Shown here piece after piece: positions 6,413-63,132 of a stretch of DNA of 64,000 nucleotides; the stretch's first letter is position 1; each line of letters starts with the position of its first letter. The notes below the pieces were generated by a model. The model searched no databases, had not been told where the DNA came from, and saw only the letters and a list, made by a program, of their open reading frames with translations. Where the stretch lies: the NCBI RefSeq assembly GCF_019890615.1, contig NZ_JAINVZ010000006.1, forward strand, positions 62,001 to 126,000, read 5' to 3'. The translations under genes and the position numbers were made by a program. This DNA comes from Streptantibioticus parmotrematis (lineage in GTDB: Bacteria; Actinomycetota; Actinomycetes; Streptomycetales; Streptomycetaceae).

Positions 6413-6449
6413 AGTTGGTCCTGGACTTACTAGGACGTCCAACTATATG
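6413..6449 (+). promoter_or_regulatory. Promoter with imperfect inverted repeat ahead of the valine operon leader
   Basis: AGTTGGTCCT and AGGACGTCCAACT form an imperfect inverted repeat (outer arms AGTTGG/CCAACT perfect). It ends at CTATATG, a fair -10 (TATATG at 6444), with CTGGAC 17 bases upstream as a possible -35. The region is AT-richer than its surroundings and directly precedes the cobalamin riboswitch, so this is the probable start of the leader RNA. Confidence 0.5.
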
Positions 6450-6457
6450 TTCGTGGG

Positions 6458-6618
6458 CAAGGCCCGCGGTGCAGGGAAGCCGGTGTGAATCCGGCACGGT
6501 CCCGCCACTGTGACCGGGGAGCGCGTCCTCGCTGTACGACACGCCACTGACGGAGGAAGTCTGCCGTCGGGAAGGCGGGAGGACGGGCGCTGATCCGGGA
6601 GTCAGGATACCGGTCGCG
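6458..6618 (+). promoter_or_regulatory. Cobalamin riboswitch in front of the mmsA valine operon
   Basis: The core GGGAAGCCGGTGTGAATCC, then GGCACGGTCCCGCCACTG and TGACC, is a textbook B12 box. The 3' closing part GGGAGTCAGGATACCGG is also standard. The next substantial gene is mmsA, 240 bases downstream, with only a 34-codon reading frame between. B12 riboswitches normally precede metE, nrd, transport or cobalamin synthesis genes, so control of valine breakdown is unusual. Confidence 0.95.
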
Positions 6619-6657
6619 GGGTGTTCCGTGTTGTCCACGAGGATGGAGCAGACACGC

Positions 6658-16899: not shown

Positions 16900-16944
16900 C
16901 GCGCACGCCTGGCCCCGGCGGGGGCGAGGGCGCACAATGGGCCG

Positions 16945-17016
16945 TGGGCGATGAGGCTCGCCCTCGACCGCACCGCGCGGCCACCGTCCGGCCCGCACGT
17001 GCTGATGGCCTCTACG
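16945..17016 (+). promoter_or_regulatory. Fluoride (crcB) riboswitch ahead of the ABC-F gene
   Basis: The 5' hairpin GGGCGATGAGGCTCGCCC has GGGC/GCCC-type arms. Its loop GAGGC can pair with GCCTC in the distal GTGCTGATGGCCTCTACGG, giving the pseudoknot that defines the fluoride aptamer. These two strings correspond closely to those of the structurally known Thermotoga petrophila aptamer. The middle stem region is longer than usual. The ABC-F start codon is about 65 bases downstream. Confidence 0.9.
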
Positions 17017-17080
17017 GATGAACGAACGCCGCGGGAGACGTGTGTGCCCGTGGCGCCGCCCACCCGGGGAGAGGCACGCC

Positions 17081-20184: not shown

Positions 20185-21453
20185 TCAGCGGTCGAGTCCG
20201 TAGGGGAGTTCCGGGTGGCGGGCGGCGATCTCCAGCAGCCGGTTGTACTTGGCGACCCGCTCGCCGCGCGCGGGCGCGCCGGACTTGAGCTGGCCGCATC
20301 CCGATCCCACCGCGAGGTCGGCGATGAAGGAGTCCTCCGTCTCGCCCGACCGGTGCGAGATCATCGCCCCGTAGCCGGACTCCCGGCACAGCGCGAGCGC
20401 GCGCAGCGTCTCGGTGACGGTGCCGATCTGGTTGAGCTTGACGAGCGACGCGTTGGCGATGCCGTCGCGCACCGCCTGCGCGATGATCGTGGGATTGGTG
20501 ACGAAGTTGTCGTCCCCCACCAGCTGCACCCGGTCGCCGAGTTCGGCGGTCAGCCGCACCCAGCCGCCGTGGTCGTCCTCGCCGAGCCCGTCCTCCAGGC
20601 TCCACACGGGGAAGTCCTCGACGATCCGCCGGTACCGCTGGATCAGTTCCTCCGAGGTCACGGGCTTGCCGTTGACCCGGTACGTGCCGTCCGGCCGGCG
20701 GAACTCGCTGGCGGCCGGATCCAGTGCGATGGCCACGCCGTCCCGCCCCGCGGTGTAACCCGCGTCGCCGATCGCGGCCACGATGACCTCCAGGGCCTCC
20801 TCCGGTTCGGTGAAGTACGGTGCGAAGCCGCCCTCGTCGCCGAGTCCGGTGCTGTGCCGCCCGTCGGCGAGCCTGCGCCGCAGTGCGCCGTACACCTCGG
20901 CACCCGCGCGCACCGCCTCGGCCATGTCGGGCGCCCCGATCGGCGCGATCATGAACTCCTGGAAGTCCAGCGGATTCGGCGCGTGCACCCCGCCGTTGAG
21001 CACGTTGAAGTGCGGCACCGGCAGCCGTGGTGCCACACCACCGGGGGTCAGGTGCTGCCACAGCGGGACGCCCTCGCTCTGCGCGGCGGCGCGGGCGACC
21101 GCCATCGACACCCCGATGACGGCGTTGGCGCCGAGCCGGGACTTGTTGCCCGTGCCGTCCAACTCGATCAGCGCCCCGTCGAGTTCGGCCTGGTCGGCGA
21201 AGTCGCGGCCGCGCAGGGCGTCCGCGATCTCACCGTTGACGTGGGCCACGGCCTTGCGCACGCCCTGACCGCCGTAGCGCGAGGTGTCCCCGTCGCGCAG
21301 TTCCACCGCCTCGGCGGAGCCGGTCGACGCGCCCGACGGCACGCCCGCGTGCGCCACCACACCGCCGGCCAGCCCGACGGTGACGGACAACGTGGGACGG
21401 GCCCGGGAGTCGAGGATCTCGGTCGCACGCAGGACGGTGATGTGCAGGGACAC
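20185..21453 (-). CDS. Second enolase, probably stress-induced
   Basis: A 422-aa enolase (2-phosphoglycerate to phosphoenolpyruvate). All catalytic and metal residues can be found: VPSGASTG loop, LNGGVHA histidine, QEFMIAPIGA glutamate, GDEGGFAP glutamate, ALDPAASEF aspartate, SLEDGLGEDD acidic pair, VGDDNFVTN aspartate, LVKLNQIG lysine, MISHRSGETED and GQLKSGAPARGERVAKYN lysine. One clear deviation is EDG instead of the nearly invariant EDP. It differs enough from the usual actinobacterial housekeeping enolase to be a paralogue. Fluoride with phosphate and magnesium is a classic enolase inhibitor, and enolase genes are known fluoride-riboswitch partners. GTG 21453 with GAGAAGG is chosen as start. 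The leader holds the unnamed pseudoknot-like RNA described separately. Confidence 0.93.
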   Translation of the reverse strand: MSLHITVLRATEILDSRARPTLSVTVGLAGGVVAHAGVPSGASTGSAEAVELRDGDTSRYGGQGVRKAVAHVNGEIADALRGRDFADQAELDGALIELDGTGNKSRLGANAVIGVSMAVARAAAQSEGVPLWQHLTPGGVAPRLPVPHFNVLNGGVHAPNPLDFQEFMIAPIGAPDMAEAVRAGAEVYGALRRRLADGRHSTGLGDEGGFAPYFTEPEEALEVIVAAIGDAGYTAGRDGVAIALDPAASEFRRPDGTYRVNGKPVTSEELIQRYRRIVEDFPVWSLEDGLGEDDHGGWVRLTAELGDRVQLVGDDNFVTNPTIIAQAVRDGIANASLVKLNQIGTVTETLRALALCRESGYGAMISHRSGETEDSFIADLAVGSGCGQLKSGAPARGERVAKYNRLLEIAARHPELPYGLDR

Positions 21454-21610
21454 GGTGGCCTTCTCTCGCGAAACGGTCGGGGACGCGGCGCGTACGACGG
21501 GCACGCGGGGCGACGGAACACACGGCGGCGGGGCACGCGACGGCGCCCGGCGACGGTGGCGGCGGACGGCGGGCGCGGGGCCCGGAGCGGTGTTCGGGAA
21601 ATCGGGGCAT
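21230..21610 (-). CDS. Possible leader reading frame of the enolase transcript (doubtful)
   Basis: The conserved RNA element ends in AGGTAGGAGAACC followed at once by an ATG at 21610, exactly where the sister copy starts a real gene. The frame begins MPRFPEHRSGPRARRP, runs 126 codons, and overlaps the enolase start in another frame. The composition looks like non-coding GC-rich sequence. It may be a short-lived leader translated to couple or hinder enolase initiation, or the remnant of a gene that once followed the element. Confidence 0.2.
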   Translation of the reverse strand: MPRFPEHRSGPRARRPPPPSPGAVACPAAVCSVAPRARRTRRVPDRFAREGHRVPAHHRPACDRDPRLPGPSHVVRHRRAGRRCGGARGRAVGRVDRLRRGGGTARRGHLALRRSGRAQGRGPRQR

Positions 21611-21684
21611 GGTTCTCCTACCTGGTGAGGTAGGGACCGTTGGCGGCCGGACGGCCACGGATGACGGCGAGCCCCTCCGCCGTA
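21611..21684 (-). ncRNA. Pseudoknot-like cis-regulatory RNA, copy 1 (enolase leader)
   Basis: On the minus strand: a hairpin CGGCGGAGGGGCTCGCCG, a variable stem, then GCCAACGGTCCCTACC, and a hairpin CCTACCTCACCAGGTAGG whose 3' side is the ribosome site AGGTAGGAG. AGGG in the first loop can pair with CCCT. CCTACCT can thus pair either inside the aptamer or with the ribosome site, the layout of a translational ON switch. A second copy lies at 24145-24217 with only a few differences. The organisation resembles the fluoride aptamer and the nhaA-I lithium class, but I cannot assign it. Confidence 0.7.
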
Positions 21685-21818
21685 CGACACCGTCCAGGCT
21701 AAGCGGAACCCGCGCCGGAGCAAAGCACCGACCTGCCGCCCGGACGCCACCGGCGGTGCGGTGGACCTGTGGGCTCCGGCGTCTTGACCTCCCGGCGGGG
21801 ACGCTGTTTCACTCTCCC

Positions 21819-21882
21819 CAGGTGATGGACCCCACCTGGGTGCTCGAACCCGAACCGCCCCCGCGGGCTGATGGCTCCTGAC
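21819..21882 (+). promoter_or_regulatory. Fluoride (crcB) riboswitch ahead of the 46-aa peptide and DUF2180 genes
   Basis: The 5' hairpin GGTGATGGACCCCACC and the distal GGGCTGATGGCTCCTGAC carry the two GATG elements of the fluoride aptamer, and AACCGC sits between them as in other members. The pseudoknot GGACCC with GGCTCC has one C-C mismatch, so this is the most diverged copy here. A possible -35 (TTGACC at 21784) lies upstream. Confidence 0.75.
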
Positions 21883-21922
21883 AGTGTTCGCCCCTGCCGG
21901 TCGGCGCACGTCGGAGGTGCCC

Positions 21923-22063
21923 GTGGAACCGTCCCAGCTCGTCCTGTCCCTCACCCTTCTCGCCGGAGCGCTCGCAGCGCGGTGCGCGCTGACCGCCCGC
22001 CCCGCACCGGTACCGGTGCCAGTGCCGACCGCCGACCGCTCCGGGACGGAGGCCGGCCGATGA
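21923..22063 (+). CDS. 46-aa single-pass membrane peptide
   Basis: A short gene found by reading downstream of the fluoride riboswitch. GTG 21923 follows CGGAGG at 5 bases, and the product VEPSQLVLSLTLLAGALAAR starts with a single hydrophobic helix (about residues 5-18), then a Pro/Val-rich stretch and a short polar tail. It ends with TGA overlapping the ATG of the DUF2180 gene (ATGA), so the two are translationally coupled. I do not recognise a family. The good ribosome site and the tight overlap support that it is real. Confidence 0.6.
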   Translation: MEPSQLVLSLTLLAGALAARCALTARPAPVPVPVPTADRSGTEAGR

Positions 22064-22263
22064 ACTGCTACGACTGCGTGCTCGACGGGACCGTGGCCCC
22101 GGCGGTGGCGGTGTGCAGCCGCTGCGGTTCCGGCGTTTGCCTCGACCACGTGCGCGTGACGGCCGAACACCCGCACCGCGTCACCGGCACCGGCGTGGCG
22201 ACGCTGTCCGGAACGGCCCGCCGGGCCACCTGCGCGACCTGCCGCGCGGCCGAACGCACCTGA
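22060..22263 (+). CDS. DUF2180-type small zinc-ribbon protein
   Basis: A 67-aa cysteine-rich protein: MNCYDC (C3, C6), CSRCGSGVCLDH (C19, C22, C27, H30) and CATCRAAERT at the end. The pattern of paired CxxC motifs and a histidine suggests two zinc sites, as in the DUF2180 family common in Streptomyces. No function is known for the family. The ATG overlaps the stop of the membrane peptide gene, and both lie directly behind a fluoride-type riboswitch. Confidence 0.75.
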   Translation: MNCYDCVLDGTVAPAVAVCSRCGSGVCLDHVRVTAEHPHRVTGTGVATLSGTARRATCATCRAAERT

Positions 22264-22308
22264 CGCCGAGCGGCCAAGGGGTGGCCGCCGCCCGTATGTG
22301 ACGGGTCG

Positions 22309-22857
22309 TCAAGTGATGTGCAGCCACACGCCGATCCACGTGACGGCCACCCCGCCGCATCCCATGCCCGCCGCCCACCGCGCGGGACTGCTCGCCATCG
22401 CCCGTCCCAGCGCGGCCCCTAGCCCCGCGAGGGCGAGCACGGCGAGCACCACCACCATCCACGACAGGCCCGGCAGCGCCGCGCCCACCAGCAACGGCAC
22501 CGTCGAACCGACGAAGCTCGCCAGACACGCCACCGCCATGGCCAGCAGCGACCGCCGCAAGGCCAGCCGCCCGAGCCGGGTGGTCGCCAGATGACCCCGG
22601 GAGGTGAGGTTCAACTCCCGTGAGGCGCGCGCCAGATGGGCCCGGCGCTCGGCGTGGTCCGAGACGAAGACCGAGAACGCCGCCGTGACCAGTCCCACGC
22701 ATCCCACCCGGGCCGCGAGCCAGAACCCCAGGGCCGCCCCGCTGCCGATCAGCGAACCGGCCGCCAGCGTGAGCGCGTTGAGGAGTCCGTCGGTCAGGCC
22801 CAGCACCAGCGGCAGCCGGGTGCGGCCCACGACGTGCCGCACCGCGTCCCGGCTCAT
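22309..22857 (-). CDS. VIT1/CCC1-like membrane protein
   Basis: A 182-aa membrane protein with about five hydrophobic segments. The opening RTRLPLVLGLTDGLLNALTL resembles the GLxDGLLTPLAL helix of VIT/CCC1 iron and manganese transporters. The usual charged metal-binding helix pair between TM2 and TM3 is short (DHAERRAHLARASRELNL). It is smaller than the usual 230 aa, so transport of iron or manganese is only plausible. The ATG overlaps the DUF211 stop (ATGA), forming a two-gene operon. Confidence 0.6.
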   Translation of the reverse strand: MSRDAVRHVVGRTRLPLVLGLTDGLLNALTLAAGSLIGSGAALGFWLAARVGCVGLVTAAFSVFVSDHAERRAHLARASRELNLTSRGHLATTRLGRLALRRSLLAMAVACLASFVGSTVPLLVGAALPGLSWMVVVLAVLALAGLGAALGRAMASSPARWAAGMGCGGVAVTWIGVWLHIT

Positions 22858-23138
22858 CGCTGCCGGCGCTTGGCCTCGACGGTGTAGTCGCCCGCCACCA
22901 CCTGGTCGATGCTGTGCACGACCGCGCCGGTGTGCTCGATGGCGTGCATCAGGGCGTCGACGTCGATGTCGTCACCCTCCACCGTGACATCCGTGCCGAC
23001 GGTCTCGATGTCGATCTCCGTGACGGAGATGTTCACCGCGCGCACGCCCGGCGAACGTTCGATCATCCGCGCGAGGTGGATCAGGTCGGGTTCGTCGATG
23101 GCTTTGTCGACGTCCAGCACCACACGTCGGATGGGCAT
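22854..23138 (-). CDS. DUF211 family protein
   Basis: A 94-aa ferredoxin-fold-like protein (MPIRRVVLDVDKAIDEPDLI start, then VNISVTEIDIETVGTDVTVE). The pattern of alternating beta strands with many acidic residues and an ISVTEIDIET core fits DUF211, a family found in archaea and actinobacteria as small oligomeric proteins. ATG 23138 has GGAGGAG upstream. It is the first gene of an operon with the VIT-like protein, suggesting a metal-related regulatory or buffering role. Its promoter faces the Nudix riboswitch region. Confidence 0.72.
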   Translation of the reverse strand: MPIRRVVLDVDKAIDEPDLIHLARMIERSPGVRAVNISVTEIDIETVGTDVTVEGDDIDVDALMHAIEHTGAVVHSIDQVVAGDYTVEAKRRQR

Positions 23139-23246
23139 CGCTCCTCCTCTCCGTGGACCGCGTCCGCGGACCCCTTCGCCATGGCCTCCACCATGCCGTC
23201 CGTCGCTTGCCACCGCGCGCCCGGCGTGCTGCCATGGTGAGTGAGC

Positions 23247-23296
23247 ACGGCGATGAGGCTCGCCGCAACCGCGTCCGGGACGCTGATGGCCTCTGG
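23247..23296 (+). promoter_or_regulatory. Fluoride (crcB) riboswitch ahead of the Nudix gene
   Basis: CGGCGATGAGGCTCGCCG, AACCGC, and GGGACGCTGATGGCCTCTGG occur in order within 50 bases. The GAGGC/GCCTC pseudoknot is perfect. This is the most compact and canonical fluoride aptamer in the window. Confidence 0.93.
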
Positions 23297-23308
23297 GTCC
23301 GGTCCGAG

Positions 23309-23329
23309 GGCCGTCGCCCCGCGACGGCC
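23309..23329 (+). terminator. Hairpin between the fluoride aptamer and the Nudix gene (candidate expression platform)
   Basis: Perfect 8-base arms GGCCGTCG and CGACGGCC enclose 5 bases. It starts 12 bases after the aptamer and 21 bases before the start codon, as expected for an attenuator or ribosome-site control stem. Confidence 0.6.
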
Positions 23330-23350
23330 GCCCGACACCTGGAGGTGGCC

Positions 23351-23881
23351 ATGGGCGCGGAGATCCCCGTCGAACTGCGGGCCAGCGCCGTCGTCTTCCG
23401 CGACGACCGGGTCCTGCTGGTCCGGCGCGACCGGCGGGACGACTGGGTGCTTCCCGGCGGATACCCCGAGGCCGGCGAGTCCCTCGCGCACTGCGCGGAA
23501 CGCGAACTCGCCGAGGAGACCGGCCTGCGACGCCGGGCCGAGGGCTGCGTGCTGGTCCTGGAGGCCGACGGCGAGCAGCTGACCCACCGTGTGGTGGACG
23601 TGGTCTTCCTGGCGCACGAGGACGATGACGGTCAGGCGCACGACGACCGGGACGCCGCGGAGGCCGACGAGCCGCTGACCCGGCGCAGCCCCGGCCTCGC
23701 CCCCGCGTTCGTGCCGCTGGCCGACCTCCCGGGCCTGCGGCTGCACCCGGCCCCGCTGGCCCGGCTGCTGGGCGCCGTGCACGCGCGGCGGGACGCCACG
23801 GCGGCCGTGGTGGACAGCGGGTCGCACCCCTGGGAGATGGCTCTGGACCTGGGGGAGTCGGACGACGCGAGCCACCACTGA
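23351..23881 (+). CDS. Nudix hydrolase
   Basis: A 176-aa Nudix protein that would hydrolyse a nucleoside-diphosphate derivative. The Nudix box (G-x5-E-x7-REL-x-EE-x-GL) is complete from GGYPEAGESL through ERELAEETGL at about residues 36-59, with all metal-binding glutamates. The start ATG 23351 follows GGAGG by 5 bases. The C-terminal half is rich in Asp and His (DDDGQAHDDRDAAEADEPL), unusual for the family. It sits directly behind a canonical fluoride riboswitch; Nudix enzymes depend on magnesium, and phosphate-analogue metal fluorides inhibit such enzymes, so a spare copy under fluoride makes sense. Its substrate cannot be predicted. Confidence 0.88.
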   Translation: MGAEIPVELRASAVVFRDDRVLLVRRDRRDDWVLPGGYPEAGESLAHCAERELAEETGLRRRAEGCVLVLEADGEQLTHRVVDVVFLAHEDDDGQAHDDRDAAEADEPLTRRSPGLAPAFVPLADLPGLRLHPAPLARLLGAVHARRDATAAVVDSGSHPWEMALDLGESDDASHH

Positions 23882-23898
23882 CCCCGGGGCGGCCCGCC

Positions 23899-24144
23899 TC
23901 ACGAGCCGGGCGGGGGCTGGTCGTCGTCGGCCGGTCGCCGCGCGGCCGCCGCGGTCACGAACACCCACGAGAAGACGCCGAGGAAGACCGCGAGCGCCAG
24001 CAGCACGTCGAACGGCAGCGGCCACGCCAGGGCCACCACCCAGGCCAGCACCCCACCGCCGACGACGCACACGGCGAACGTCGCGGCGTGCGTCGTGAAC
24101 CGCCTCAGGCGCTCCCGCGGCGGGCGGGAAGTGGATCGGGGCAT
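23899..24144 (-). CDS. Small two-TM membrane protein behind the pseudoknot-like RNA
   Basis: An 81-aa protein with a basic N-terminus (MPRSTSRPPRERLRRF), two hydrophobic helices at about 20-42 and 44-65 (AVCVVGGGVLAWVVALAW and LLALAVFLGVFSWVFVTAAA), and a short acidic tail. The ATG follows AGGTAGGAGGACCC, the 3' end of the conserved RNA element. No family is recognised. It is too short and lacks the motifs of CrcB/Fluc channels (about 120 aa, four TM), although a two-helix subunit of a channel or an accessory protein of the complex upstream is possible. Confidence 0.65.
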   Translation of the reverse strand: MPRSTSRPPRERLRRFTTHAATFAVCVVGGGVLAWVVALAWPLPFDVLLALAVFLGVFSWVFVTAAAARRPADDDQPPPGS

Positions 24145-24217
24145 GGGTCCTCCTACCTTTGAGGTAGGGACCGTTGGCGGCGGGTGGCCGCGGACGACGG
24201 CGAGCCCCTCCGCCGTA
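24145..24217 (-). ncRNA. Pseudoknot-like cis-regulatory RNA, copy 2 (small membrane protein leader)
   Basis: The sequence matches copy 1 base for base in the first hairpin (TACGGCGGAGGGGCTCGCCG), in GCCGCCAACGGTCCC and in the TACCTCA segment. The differences lie in the variable stem and the tip of the last hairpin, where compensating or loop changes are seen. The last hairpin CCTACCTCAAAGGTAGG again hides the ribosome site AGGTAGGAGG. It fills the gap between the PAP2 stop and the start codon. Confidence 0.72.
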
Positions 24218-24225
24218 TCGCCCGT

Positions 24226-24813
24226 TCAGGATAGGCCGGATCGGCCGGTCCGGAAGCCGCCGAAGGGGTGATGCCGTGCGACGGCAGCCCCCAGGGCGCC
24301 GTAGACCCATCCGGCGGCGACGTCGCCGGGCCAGTGCACCCGCAGCCTGACCCGGCTGACACCCACCGCCAGCGCGTACACCACGGCCGCGTTCCTGGTG
24401 GCGGCCCGGTGCGCGGGGAAGAGCGCGTCGGCCGCCACGGCCGGGGCGAAGGCGGCGAGCGTGGCGTGCCGGGACGGGAAGCTCCAGCCGTCGCAGGCCG
24501 CCAACCGCCGTGCCGCGTCTGGCCGTTCACGGCGTACGACGGCGCACAGCACCTCCCGCCCGAGGTCCGCGCAGCCGAGCGCGGCAAGGGGTCCGAGGGC
24601 GGCGAGCGGGCCACGGCCCCGCCGCAGCACGGCGAGCGCGGCGACGGACGTGAGCCCGTAGGCCACCGGGCGGGAGCCGAGCCGGGTCACGAGACGCGCG
24701 TACGGCACGTCCCGGCCGCGCTCCGACGCGCCGAGGCGCTCCAGCAGCCACCGGTCGACGTCCCGCGGCCCGTTCACGCCCGCGAGGACGCGGCGGAAGG
24801 GTCCGGATTCCAT
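24226..24813 (-). CDS. PAP2-family membrane phosphatase
   Basis: A 195-aa protein with the three acid-phosphatase motifs: VVRRERPD (KxxxxxxRP-like), SFPSRHATLAAF (the PSGH motif with Arg in place of Gly) and SRVRLRVHWPGDVAAGW (SRxxxxxHxxxD). Several hydrophobic helices place it in the membrane; the substrate could be a phosphatidic acid or polyprenyl phosphate. ATG 24813 has AAAGGAG upstream. It follows the Ehr-type complex on the same strand at 51 bases and may share its fluoride-controlled transcript. Confidence 0.8.
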   Translation of the reverse strand: MESGPFRRVLAGVNGPRDVDRWLLERLGASERGRDVPYARLVTRLGSRPVAYGLTSVAALAVLRRGRGPLAALGPLAALGCADLGREVLCAVVRRERPDAARRLAACDGWSFPSRHATLAAFAPAVAADALFPAHRAATRNAAVVYALAVGVSRVRLRVHWPGDVAAGWVYGALGAAVARHHPFGGFRTGRSGLS

Positions 24814-32421: not shown

Positions 32422-32560
32422 CAGGTGCCTCCCGGGGCCGTACGCTGCCGGGGCGCCCCGCCGTTCCCGACGGGGCCTGCCTGGTGGACCGGGGCCACCT
32501 CCGTCATCTCGCCTCCGCCAACTGCCGGGACAGCCGTGATCGGCCGTCGGGTGGTCAGTG

Positions 32561-32612
32561 GTAGAGGCCATCAGCGGCACCCGCGCCGCGGTTGTGGCGA
32601 GCCCCATCGCCG
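32561..32612 (-). promoter_or_regulatory. Fluoride (crcB) riboswitch ahead of the Ehr-type operon
   Basis: On the minus strand GGCGATGGGGCTCGCC is followed by AACCGC and GCCGCTGATGGCCTCTAC. The loop GGGGC pairs with GCCTC through one G-U, giving the fluoride pseudoknot. Formate-hydrogenlyase-like operons are among the published targets of this class, in line with this position. Confidence 0.92.
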
Positions 32613-32713
32613 GACTCCCAGTGTGGGCCCGCGCTCGGCGCCACCGCAAGGCCGGGCCGCCACATGGGTGACGCGCCACGGTGGGCGGGGCACCCCGCCC
32701 GGCATCGAGGGAC

Positions 32714-35814: not shown

Positions 35815-35861
35815 CTCGGCCCACCTCCGGCACGACGTCATGGCAGGACACACCACCGCGA

Positions 35862-35914
35862 CCAGAGGCCATCAGCACGACGACGTGCGGGCAAGGGCGA
35901 GCCTCATCACCCGC
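35862..35914 (-). promoter_or_regulatory. Fluoride (crcB) riboswitch ahead of the MutS-like pair
   Basis: On the minus strand GGGTGATGAGGCTCGCCC and GTGCTGATGGCCTCTGGTC are present, with a perfect GAGGC/GCCTC pseudoknot. The central stem is CACGTCGTCGTG-like. It precedes the GTG start by about 48 bases. Confidence 0.91.
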
Positions 35915-36196
35915 TCCCATGGTGCCCCCGCGACACGCCCTCCCGCCAGTCCGCCGCCCGGGCATGCCCGGGGACGGCCCGCGCGGGGCCGGTCGGTCTC
36001 CTTTACGCGGGGAGGGGGCGGCGCGTTCACGGGCCGGGAAAGCGGCCTTGAGCACGCCTCCCACCTGGGCGGATGTACAGAACTGAGAGACTACGTGGGG
36101 GTCTTGGGGACGTTATGAGGATTCACCGGTACGGTGTGCGGCAGTCGATCGCCGGTTCATGGCGCGATCGTTTGAAAAATAAGGGGGCCTATGCCC

Positions 36197-60342: not shown

Positions 60343-63132
60343 ATGCCCCGTTTCCGGGGCCGGTCCTGGGCTCCGTCGGCCCGCCGTGCCACTGATCGGC
60401 GCCCACGGGGTCGGCCTGATCACCCGAGTCGAGCCGGCAGCCAGGACGCACGCGAGCGCCGGGACCAGCGGCCGGACGCCGAGCGGCGCCGGTGGCTGGG
60501 ACTGAGTGTCCGCAGCCTGGCCGGCCAGGTCTTCGTGCTCCAAGTGGTCATCGTGCTGCTGCTCATCGCCGCCGCGGTGGGCGAACTCGTCGCGCAGTCG
60601 CACCACGACAGCACCCAGGAGGCCCGCAACCGCTCGCTCGCCGTCGCCCAGACCTTCGCCAACTCGCCGGGCATGGTGGCCGCGCTCGCCGCCAAGGACC
60701 CGACCGCGATCCTCCAGCCGAAGGCCCAGGAGGTGCGGGCCACCACCGGGGTGGACTTCGTCGTCGTCACCAACACCCAGGGCATTCGCTACACCCACCC
60801 GATCCGCAACAGGATCGGCAAGAAGTTCGTCGGCGACATCTCCCAGCCGCTGGCCGGTCACCCCGTCACCCAGACCATCAACGGCACCATCGGCCGCCTC
60901 GTGCAGGCGGTCGTCCCCGTCTTCGACGCCAAGGGCAAGGTCGTCGGCCTGGTCTCCGCGGGCATCACCATCAGCAAGATCAGCAACGTCACCGACCGGC
61001 AGCTGCCCATCCTGCTCAGCGGCGCGATCCTGGCGCTCGGCCTGTCCACCGCGGGCACCGCCCTGGTCAGCCGCAGGCTGCGCCGCCAGACCCACGGCCT
61101 GGGCCCGGCCGAGATGACCCGGATGTACGAACACCACGACGCGGTGCTGCACTCCGTCCGCGAGGGCGTCCTGATCGTCGGCGAGGACGGCAGGGTGCTG
61201 CTCGCCAACGACGAGGCGCGCCGCCTGCTGGACCTGCCGCCCGACGTGGAGGGCCGACCGCTGGACGAGCTGGGCCTGCCCGAGCAGCTGGCCCGGCTGC
61301 TGCGGTCCGGCTCGGCCGTCACCGACGAGGTCTTCAGCGCCGGCCCCCGGCTGCTGGCCACCAACATCCGCTCCACCGACCGCGACGGCGGCCCGCCCGG
61401 CACCGTGGCCACCCTGCGCGACTCCACCGAGCTGCGGGCGCTCAGCGGCAAGGCGGACCAGGCCCGCGGGCGGCTGCGGCTGCTGCACGACGCCAGCAGG
61501 GCCATCGGCACCACCCTGGACGTGCGCCGCACCGCCGAGGAGCTGACCCGGGTGGCCACCCCGAGCTTCGCCGACTTCGTCACCGTCGACCTCGCCGAGG
61601 GCGTCCTGCTGGGCGAGGAGCCCACCCCGGGCGAGGCGATGCAGCTGCGCCGGGTGGCCTCCGGCGGCATCCGCGACGACGCTCCGCTCTACCCGGTCGG
61701 CCAGACCATCACGTTCGCCCCGAGCACCCCGCAGGCCAACAGCCTCAGGACCGGGCGGGCAGAGCTGGAGCCGTCGCTCGACGCGGCCCCCGACTGGCAG
61801 GCGCAGGACGTCGAACGCACCCGGCGCGTCATCGACTACGGCATCCACTCGCTGATCGCGGTGCCGCTGCGGGCGCGCGGCGCGGTGCTGGGGGTGGCCA
61901 ACTTCTGGCGTTGCGAGCAGCCCGACCCGTTCGAGGACGACGACCGGTCGCTGGCCGAGGAACTGGTGGCGCACGCCGCGTTGTGCGTCGACAACGCCCG
62001 CCGCTACACCCGCGAGCACGCGATGGCGGTCACCCTCCAGCACAGCCTGCTGCCGCGCGGCCTGCCCGAGCAGAACGCCCTGGAGGTCGCCTACCGCTAC
62101 CTGCCCGCGCAGGCCGGGGTCGGCGGCGACTGGTTCGACGTCATCCCGCTGCCCGGCTCACGGGTGGCGCTGGTGGTCGGCGACGTGGTCGGCCACGGGC
62201 TGCACGCCGCGGCCACCATGGGACGGCTGCGCACCGCGGTGCACAACTTCTCCTCCCTCGACGTGCCGCCCGACGAACTCCTCGGCCACCTGGACGAATT
62301 GGTCAACCGCATCGACCAGGAGACCCCGGCCGCCGGGGACGAGTCGGCGATCACCGGCGCCACCTGCCTGTACGCCACGTACGACCCGGCGAGCAGGCGC
62401 TGCGTCATCGCCCGGGCCGGCCACCCGCCGCCCGCCGTCGTCCACCCGGACGGACGGGTGGAGTTCGCCGAGGTGCCCGCGGGGCCGCCCCTGGGCCTCG
62501 CCGTGCTGCCGTTCGAGACCACGGAGATCCTCCTGGAGGAGGGCAGCCGCCTGGTCTTCTACACCGACGGCCTGGTCGAGGAGCGCGACGAGGACATCGA
62601 CGTGGGCCTGGAACGGCTGCGCGGGGTGCTGGCCGAGGGGGAGCGCACCCCCGACGAGACCTGCTCCGCCGTGCTCGGCTCGCTGCTGCCCGCCCACCAG
62701 CGCGACGACATCGCCCTGCTGGTGGCCCGCACCCGGGTGCTCAGGCCCGACCAGATCGCGGACTGGGAGGTGCCGTCCGACCCGGCCGCGGTCGCCACGG
62801 TACGCGCCGACGTCACCCGCAAGCTGGAGGAATGGGGCCTGGGCGACCTGGCGTTCACCACCGAACTGATCCTCAGCGAACTGATCACCAACGCCATCCG
62901 CTACGCCACCGGGCCCATCCGGGTGCGGCTGCTGCGCGACCGCAGATTGACCTGCGAGGTCTCCGACACCAGCAGTACCGCCCCGCACCTGCGGTACGCG
63001 GCGAGCACCGACGAGGGCGGGCGCGGACTGTTCCTCGTCGCGCAGTTCGCCGAACGCTGGGGGACGCGCTACACCCCGGACGGCAAGGTCATCTGGACCG
63101 AGCAACAGCTCGAACCCTCCTGGGAGTTCTGA
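60343..63132 (+). CDS. Membrane sensor SpoIIE-type phosphatase (Cache-PAS-GAF-PP2C-HATPase)
   Basis: A 929-aa signalling protein. A basic N-terminus is followed by TM1 (about 61-84), a CitA/DcuS-like extracellular sensor (about 85-205, FVVVTNTQGIRYTHPIRNRI, GRLVQAVVPVFDAKGKVVGL), TM2 (about 222-242), PAS (255-365, LHSVREGVLIVGEDGRVLLA), GAF (380-560), PP2C (570-770, GVGGDWFDVIPLPGSRVALV, GDVVGHGLHAAATMGRLR), and an RsbW-like ATPase (795-925, ELILSELITNAIRYATG). It would link an outside ligand, perhaps a carboxylic acid, to sigma-factor control. The start ATG 60343 is the first of the frame and may be leaderless. Confidence 0.88.
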   Translation: MPRFRGRSWAPSARRATDRRPRGRPDHPSRAGSQDARERRDQRPDAERRRWLGLSVRSLAGQVFVLQVVIVLLLIAAAVGELVAQSHHDSTQEARNRSLAVAQTFANSPGMVAALAAKDPTAILQPKAQEVRATTGVDFVVVTNTQGIRYTHPIRNRIGKKFVGDISQPLAGHPVTQTINGTIGRLVQAVVPVFDAKGKVVGLVSAGITISKISNVTDRQLPILLSGAILALGLSTAGTALVSRRLRRQTHGLGPAEMTRMYEHHDAVLHSVREGVLIVGEDGRVLLANDEARRLLDLPPDVEGRPLDELGLPEQLARLLRSGSAVTDEVFSAGPRLLATNIRSTDRDGGPPGTVATLRDSTELRALSGKADQARGRLRLLHDASRAIGTTLDVRRTAEELTRVATPSFADFVTVDLAEGVLLGEEPTPGEAMQLRRVASGGIRDDAPLYPVGQTITFAPSTPQANSLRTGRAELEPSLDAAPDWQAQDVERTRRVIDYGIHSLIAVPLRARGAVLGVANFWRCEQPDPFEDDDRSLAEELVAHAALCVDNARRYTREHAMAVTLQHSLLPRGLPEQNALEVAYRYLPAQAGVGGDWFDVIPLPGSRVALVVGDVVGHGLHAAATMGRLRTAVHNFSSLDVPPDELLGHLDELVNRIDQETPAAGDESAITGATCLYATYDPASRRCVIARAGHPPPAVVHPDGRVEFAEVPAGPPLGLAVLPFETTEILLEEGSRLVFYTDGLVEERDEDIDVGLERLRGVLAEGERTPDETCSAVLGSLLPAHQRDDIALLVARTRVLRPDQIADWEVPSDPAAVATVRADVTRKLEEWGLGDLAFTTELILSELITNAIRYATGPIRVRLLRDRRLTCEVSDTSSTAPHLRYAASTDEGGRGLFLVAQFAERWGTRYTPDGKVIWTEQQLEPSWEF

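Follow-up and report, generated by a model that had tools for sequence, protein, structure and literature searches.

We analysed a 64,000-nucleotide (nt) stretch of the Streptantibioticus parmotrematis genome (the window; NZ_JAINVZ010000006.1, positions 62,001 to 126,000), whose minus strand carries two near-identical RNA elements, copy 1 upstream of an enolase gene and copy 2 upstream of a gene for a small protein with two transmembrane segments (two-TM protein; Table 1). The 5′ and 3′ blocks of the copies are exactly alike, and both strings that the original prediction had described as shared are present at their places; the main differences lie in helix P2 and the P2 loop, the variable stem of that prediction being P2, which carries compensatory changes. 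Copy 1 does lie upstream of enolase, as had been proposed, but the start codon behind the switch is not that of enolase, which we take to start at GTG 21453. These elements and their relatives are called variants here, with reference to the canonical fluoride riboswitch (Rfam RF01734), in whose aptamer A6-U38 is a reversed Watson-Crick pair and A40-U48, the "linchpin", a reversed Hoogsteen pair (Thermotoga petrophila numbering, PMC11586693; the same core is described in PMC10687018, where the first residue is A10).

The pattern GGCGGAGGGGCTCGCCGT...CAACGGTCCCTACC matched twice in the 7.4-Mb genome and not at all when read backwards, and a looser gapped pattern located 27 places, spread over 17 of the 297 host-family genomes; since the reversed control gave 0 matches, the motif exceeds chance. 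These places hold 26 distinct sequences, 25 of which (L017 was left out) were aligned and built into model R1. In a class-wide sample of 394 Actinomycetes genomes, R1 matched 53 at E ≤ 1e-5 and 86 at E ≤ 0.01, the weaker matches including canonical fluoride switches and some chance matches; the covariance search of actinobacteria suggested with the original prediction turned up numerous additional copies, and these show compensatory changes. Scanning named genomes with a pattern gave at least 118 stretches, and all names among the matches listed are actinobacterial (Streptomyces, Kitasatospora, Actinacidiphila, Nocardioides, Micromonospora, Mycobacterium helveticum, Nocardia, Amycolatopsis, Kribbella, Actinomadura).

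The variant is, on comparative evidence, an H-type pseudoknotted aptamer composed of P1, a pseudoknot between loop and 3′ strand, and P2, like the fluoride aptamer; this agrees with the two hairpins and loop pseudoknot first proposed, as P1, P2 and one pseudoknot pair covary. Across 83 sequences aligned to R1, an alignment that hence leans towards R1's own P1 and P2, the cells were paired in 98.8% of cases in P1, 99.8% in the pseudoknot and 91.3% in P2 (96.6% overall, versus 37-55% when the partners were slid), and the covariation score was reached by 0 of 500 shuffles. We observed two-sided changes at nine pairs (three in P1, one in the pseudoknot, five in P2), and pseudoknot pair 13-42 occurs as C-G, U-G or U-A. 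A MAFFT alignment of the 25 sequences likewise supported P2; the pseudoknot could not vary in it, being fixed by the search pattern. RNAalifold, applied to alignment A2, recovered P2 along with most of the pairing in the pseudoknot and dropped P1, because it cannot write pseudoknots. One might instead regard the copies as no RNA switch at all—a duplicated promoter/ribosome-site segment or a protein-binding DNA repeat—given their near-identity in the window and the −10-like hexamer and Shine-Dalgarno sequence that travel with the block (90 of 162 variants have TANNNT within 28 nt upstream, where shuffles lead one to expect 12.6); this is barely credible, since across many genera P1 and P2, one pair of the pseudoknot and the switch helix described below all carry compensatory changes, and junction and loop lengths vary while the pairs are kept.

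As an RNA switch, the element offers its 3′ strand (positions 46-53, CCUACCUG) two partners, the pseudoknot/linchpin or the Shine-Dalgarno sequence (CAGGUAGGAG), never both at once; the alternative pairing originally noted for CCTACCT and AGGTAGG is confirmed by the sequence of the copies and by family-wide covariation. Each variant followed by 150 nt or more was scored for at least 7 of 8 pairs with a start codon within 22 nt; such a switch helix was present in 129 of 163 variants (permuted 5′ strands: mean 93, maximum 105 in 300 trials), and in 46 of 76 distinct pairs (permutations: mean 24, maximum 33 in 500 trials). This permutation control repeats the choice of the best site and is the test relied on, rather than two earlier ones, the first of which had given a score of at least 8 in 98 of 164 loci versus 6.0% of dinucleotide shuffles (best site per locus). 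Two-sided changes in the switch helix comprise ACCTG/CAGGT, ACTTG/CGAGT, ACCAG/CTGGT and GCGTG/CACGC. Since the 3′ strand covaries with the Shine-Dalgarno sequence, a translational switch is indicated. In the ligand-free state the 3′ strand would pair with the Shine-Dalgarno sequence and translation would be off; upon ligand binding it would be held in the pseudoknot and the U48 linchpin, and because the same strand forms both, the Shine-Dalgarno sequence would be freed and translation turned on. The comparative evidence supports a translational switch, presumably working in the ON direction, as the original prediction had it; the B. cereus fluoride switch, in contrast, is transcriptional (PMC8752731).

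The closest internal comparison is a canonical fluoride switch of the window (32555-32620; CGGCG AUGGGGCU CGCC ACAACC GCGGC..GCCGC UGAUGGCCUCUACC), which the variant family (CGGCG GAGGGGCU CGCC G.CA(A/U)CC GCGGC..GCCGC CAACGGUCCCUACC in the A7 form, many others having U7) matches position by position, with segments of equal length after P2; the variant models find this canonical switch as well (R1 38.2 bits, R2 36.7 bits). When 20 variant loci were scanned with cmscan at E ≤ 10, RF01734 matched in place at 12 of them with 16.8-24.8 bits, under its gathering cut-off of 34 bits, and missed eight (L003, L005, L008, L012, L017, L041, L049, L053); the first four are all the host-family A7 loci in the set, and L050, also A7, was matched at 21.4 bits. 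The highest RF01734 score noticed for a variant was 32.5 bits (G348). RF01734 exceeded its cut-off in 12 of the 394 Actinomycetes genomes, a threshold not equivalent to that of R1 at E ≤ 1e-5, and matched 25 at E ≤ 0.001, some of these being variant loci. The variant shares with RF01734 P1, the pseudoknot loop, J1 "AACC", P2, the spacing from P2 to the pseudoknot, A40-U48 and the 3′ UAC, together with its place before CrcB, enolase and pyrophosphatase genes; unlike RF01734 members, the variants fall under the Rfam cut-off or are unmatched at the loci tested, and they have G6-C38 for A6-U38, mostly C41 for U41, mostly A39, and A or U at position 7. Because of the match to the canonical switch, the sub-threshold RF01734 matches and the fluoride-regulon genes described below, we regard the variant as a fluoride switch that has diverged, not as a class of its own. 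Both window elements very probably belong to a divergent subtype of the fluoride riboswitch, acting as translational ON switches that would bind fluoride.

The original prediction had pointed to a distinct ion- or halide-sensing RNA reminiscent of the fluoride and nhaA-I classes; the halide theme and the fluoride likeness stand, whereas neither a distinct class, given the position-by-position match, nor closeness to nhaA-I or DUF1646 is supported. An unrelated orphan ion class of the lithium/sodium type (such as nhaA-I or DUF1646), fluoride-like in layout only, would agree with that first impression and with the lack of any Rfam match above cut-off at copies 1 and 2. The likeness extends to the ion-class theme and the loop pseudoknot, and neither nhaA-I nor DUF1646, both of which we take to be in the scanned 4227-family library, appeared among the E ≤ 10 matches of either copy; no confident match to a named non-ion class was found there either. 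With the residue-level match to the fluoride RNA, the sub-threshold RF01734 matches at relatives and intermediates that have A6-U38 but C41, we consider this class very improbable.

The core of the diverged fluoride switch reads G6, A or U7, G8, C38, A39, A40, C41 and U48. In 176 distinct sequences (9 of 201 rows, with a loop not 8 long, were left out), positions 6 and 38 are G-C in 159, A-U in 14, G-U in 1 and unpaired in 2, so that the two letters change together; the A6-U38 rows came through a variant-trained model, and their share is no frequency. U48 was observed in 160 of 162 G6 rows (one exception has no letter there) and A40 in 159; C41 occurs in 155 of 159 G6-C38 sequences, the other 4 having U41, and in 5 of 14 A6-U38 sequences. 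Of the residues that mark RF01734 membership, the variant retains the A40-U48 linchpin and lacks the A6-U38 pair and U41. In a comparison set of 12 RF01734-matched loci without an R1 match, plus the window, 17 of 19 matches carry A6/U38 by eye, low-scoring L275 and L276 not being placeable. Model R2 found 13 loci outside the class Actinomycetes, and 13 of 13 carry A6/U38; the divergent G6-C38 subtype has so far been seen in the class Actinomycetes only, and within the present sample its core appears to have arisen there. Intermediate cores of the form AUG...UGAC (A6-U38 with C41) occur at L101:10646-10700, L088:5001-5054, L263 and L264, and in the host genome too. In the variant, the reversed Watson-Crick pair A6-U38 is replaced by G6-C38, usually together with C41 and A39. 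By analogy with the Levitt pair of tRNA, to which we assume it to be comparable, G6-C38 presumably keeps the same trans geometry as A6-U38.

The known fluoride regulon comprises exporters, enolase, pyrophosphatase and formate hydrogenlyase (PMC8752731, PMC11139923). We assigned genes to the elements by tblastn with reference proteins, keeping the nearest match within 1500 nt behind each. Where the flank reached 500 nt or more (166 distinct variants), CrcB follows 122, enolase 6, a dynamin-like gene 5, pyrophosphatase 3, DUF190 3, PGM, MFS, ABC-F and other ABC genes 2 each, and the two-TM gene 1. Counted separately were six variants with short flanks (2 CrcB, 4 none), one with U38 (CrcB) and ten not parsable (4 CrcB, 1 enolase, 5 none). 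For CrcB, the assignment is based on tblastn and on matches to Pfam CRCB; in at least nine genomes (G032, G082, G088, G094, G121, G342, G402, G412, G562) such matches stand no more than about 300 nt downstream of a variant. Representatives of the enolase, histidine phosphatase (PGM-like), pyrophosphatase, dynamin-like, MFS and ABC genes are confirmed by Pfam. Like RF01734 members, the variants stand before fluoride exporters and fluoride-sensitive enzymes. Among 24 canonical elements (2 more had short flanks), 7 precede CrcB, 3 pyrophosphatase, 2 dynamin-like genes, 1 enolase, 2 ABC-F or ABC genes and 9 none of these; outside Actinomycetes, canonical A6-U38 elements precede CrcB at 7 of 9 loci tested.

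These gene sets bear on the ligand. A G6-C38 variant that kept the fold and sensed another anion or ion in place of fluoride would explain why the substitutions sit exactly at binding-core positions 6, 38, 39 and 41, and why both cores, canonical and variant, occur side by side in the window and host genome as if their jobs differed. Ligand shifts are, however, usually accompanied by a gene shift, and the gene sets of both cores overlap (CrcB, enolase, pyrophosphatase, ABC-F, dynamin-like), which makes such a change of ligand improbable. We raise, tentatively, the possibility that the compensated swap of the pocket-closing pair A6-U38 for G6-C38 (with C41/A39) gave rise to a second Actinomycetes fluoride core, with Mg-F site, working range or ligand re-tuned, which would operate next to the canonical core in the same genomes and provide a single cell with graded fluoride sensors; where the ligand is fluoride, this coincides in part with the divergent fluoride riboswitch proposed above.

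Several observations weigh against a divergent fluoride riboswitch. RF01734 gave no match at copies 1 and 2 at E ≤ 10 (cmscan, 4227 families), where the Rfam matches were chance ones only. The pseudoknot shows two-sided changes at only 1 of 6 pairs, and the single-strand minimum-free-energy fold of copy 1 is no stabler than shuffles (z values −0.67 for copy 1 and −2.14, from a method that is uninformative for pseudoknots). The change of U41 to C affects a position whose mutation (U41A) abolishes the response of the B. cereus switch (PMC11077080). The ATG behind copy 1 opens a 126-amino-acid open reading frame (ORF) that is out of frame with enolase, the stretch ahead of enolase showing no coding GC bias; for 18 of the 166 variants no tested gene stands behind the element; and CrcB is present in 362 of the 394 genomes, so that most carry it without a detected variant.

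The window region is a fluoride-response island: within 19 kb it contains the two variants and five canonical fluoride elements, of which two exceed the cut-off and one of the others is only probable, so the suggestion that the copies serve the same island is supported by canonical fluoride switches around both. The canonical switches have island and architecture in common with the variant and differ in their core, AUG...UGAU.

Table 1 Features of the window (positions within the 64,000-nt stretch).
Feature	Position	Strand	Score	Remarks
Cobalamin riboswitch	245-471	−		
Cobalamin riboswitch	6426-6632	+		
Canonical fluoride riboswitch (AUG...UGAU)	16938-17021	+	28.3 bits, under cut-off	Before ABC-F (EttA-like) gene, ABC domains
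Enolase, presumed copy 1 target	20185-21453	−		Pfam Enolase_N/C
Expression platform, copy 1	21608-21634	−		CCTACCT 21634-21628 pairable with AGGTAGG 21623-21617; ATG 21610-21608
Shine-Dalgarno AGGAG, copy 1	21619-21615	−		Overlapped by AGGTAGG 21623-21617
Variant fluoride-type aptamer, copy 1	21628-21683	−	R1 78.4 bits, R2 71.6 bits	Upstream of enolase
Copy 1, P1	21682-21678/21669-21665	−		Read by hand
Copy 1, P2	21658-21653/21648-21643	−		Read by hand
Copy 1, pseudoknot	21675-21670/21638-21633	−		Read by hand
Copy 1, core	G6 21677, A7 21676, C38 21642, A40 21640, U48 21632	−		Read by hand
−10-like TAGCCT, copy 1 upstream	21696-21701	−		Putative promoter
Canonical fluoride riboswitch	21812-21887	+	37.3 bits	Before small Cys-rich ORF (by eye)
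Canonical fluoride riboswitch	23240-23302	+	33.5 bits, just under cut-off	Before NUDIX-like ORF (by eye)
81-amino-acid two-TM protein	23899-24144	−		ORF; TMs by eye; start codon directly behind copy 2
Expression platform, copy 2	24142-24168	−		CCTACCT 24168-24162 pairable with AGGTAGG 24158-24152; ATG 24144-24142
Variant fluoride-type aptamer, copy 2	24162-24216	−	R1 75.3 bits, R2 68.8 bits	Upstream of two-TM protein
Copy 2, core	G6 24210, C38 24176, U48 24166	−		Read by hand
−10-like TATCCT, copy 2 upstream	24228-24233	−		Putative promoter
Canonical fluoride riboswitch	32555-32620	−	43.3 bits	Operon behind: NADH-dehydrogenase/formate-hydrogenlyase-like (Pfam NADHdh, Proton_antipo_M)
Probable canonical fluoride riboswitch (AUG...UGAU)	35856-35920	−	19 bits, E 0.33	Before MutS-domain genes (MutS_V)

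The host genome holds seven variants and at least 11 canonical-type elements, at least 18 fluoride-type switches in all (counted from listings; C33:22407 and C33:23466 among the canonical-type ones were not read base by base). A second cluster of fluoride-type switches lies on its contig C33 (L278, L279) and also on C78 (L280). In a related genome (G073:C4:6700000-6759999, L100-L102), seven variants and canonical elements occupy about 60 kb and precede PGM, pyrophosphatase, enolase, CrcB and ABC-F genes. An organofluorine link was rejected, the host genome having no match to PF01887 (fluorinase family), and a plasmid search with 121 bases gave no match.

The two-TM protein matched no Pfam family at E ≤ 0.001, and an NCBIfam scan of two-TM proteins gave a single weak match far under cut-off; it is a candidate new fluoride-response membrane protein. 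Small two-TM-like ORFs also stand behind the element in L003 and L028/L102 (by eye). A short or out-of-frame leader ORF is opened by the start codon behind the switch in the window (21610-21454) and in L010, L015, L027 and L029. ATGCCCC follows the Shine-Dalgarno sequence in 18 of 41 A7-type copies; as a candidate idea, a GGGGC loop freed in the OFF state could pair with GCCCC.

The standard RNA database, Rfam, did not flag copies 1 and 2, and many actinobacteria carry relatives, mostly before fluoride-export genes. We found no description of the G6-C38 subtype in the literature searched, a search that did not extend to the founding fluoride-riboswitch papers or the Streptomyces cattleya study. 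A 2024 review (PMC11139923) describes regulation in S. cattleya as extensively riboswitch-based, puts the share of riboswitch-controlled Fluc genes at only about 15% and states that there are further, unknown mechanisms; the subtype may already have been noticed in S. cattleya or in the founding studies. Studies starting from Rfam's list (PMC13273304) would probably have overlooked the variant. Most CrcB-bearing genomes still show neither a canonical nor a variant switch; as the variant model matches 53 genomes versus 12 for Rfam (at those non-equivalent thresholds), some seemingly unregulated exporters would carry an overlooked switch. Furthermore, the double substitution that occurs naturally in this small, much studied aptamer's binding core would show which contacts fluoride sensing needs.

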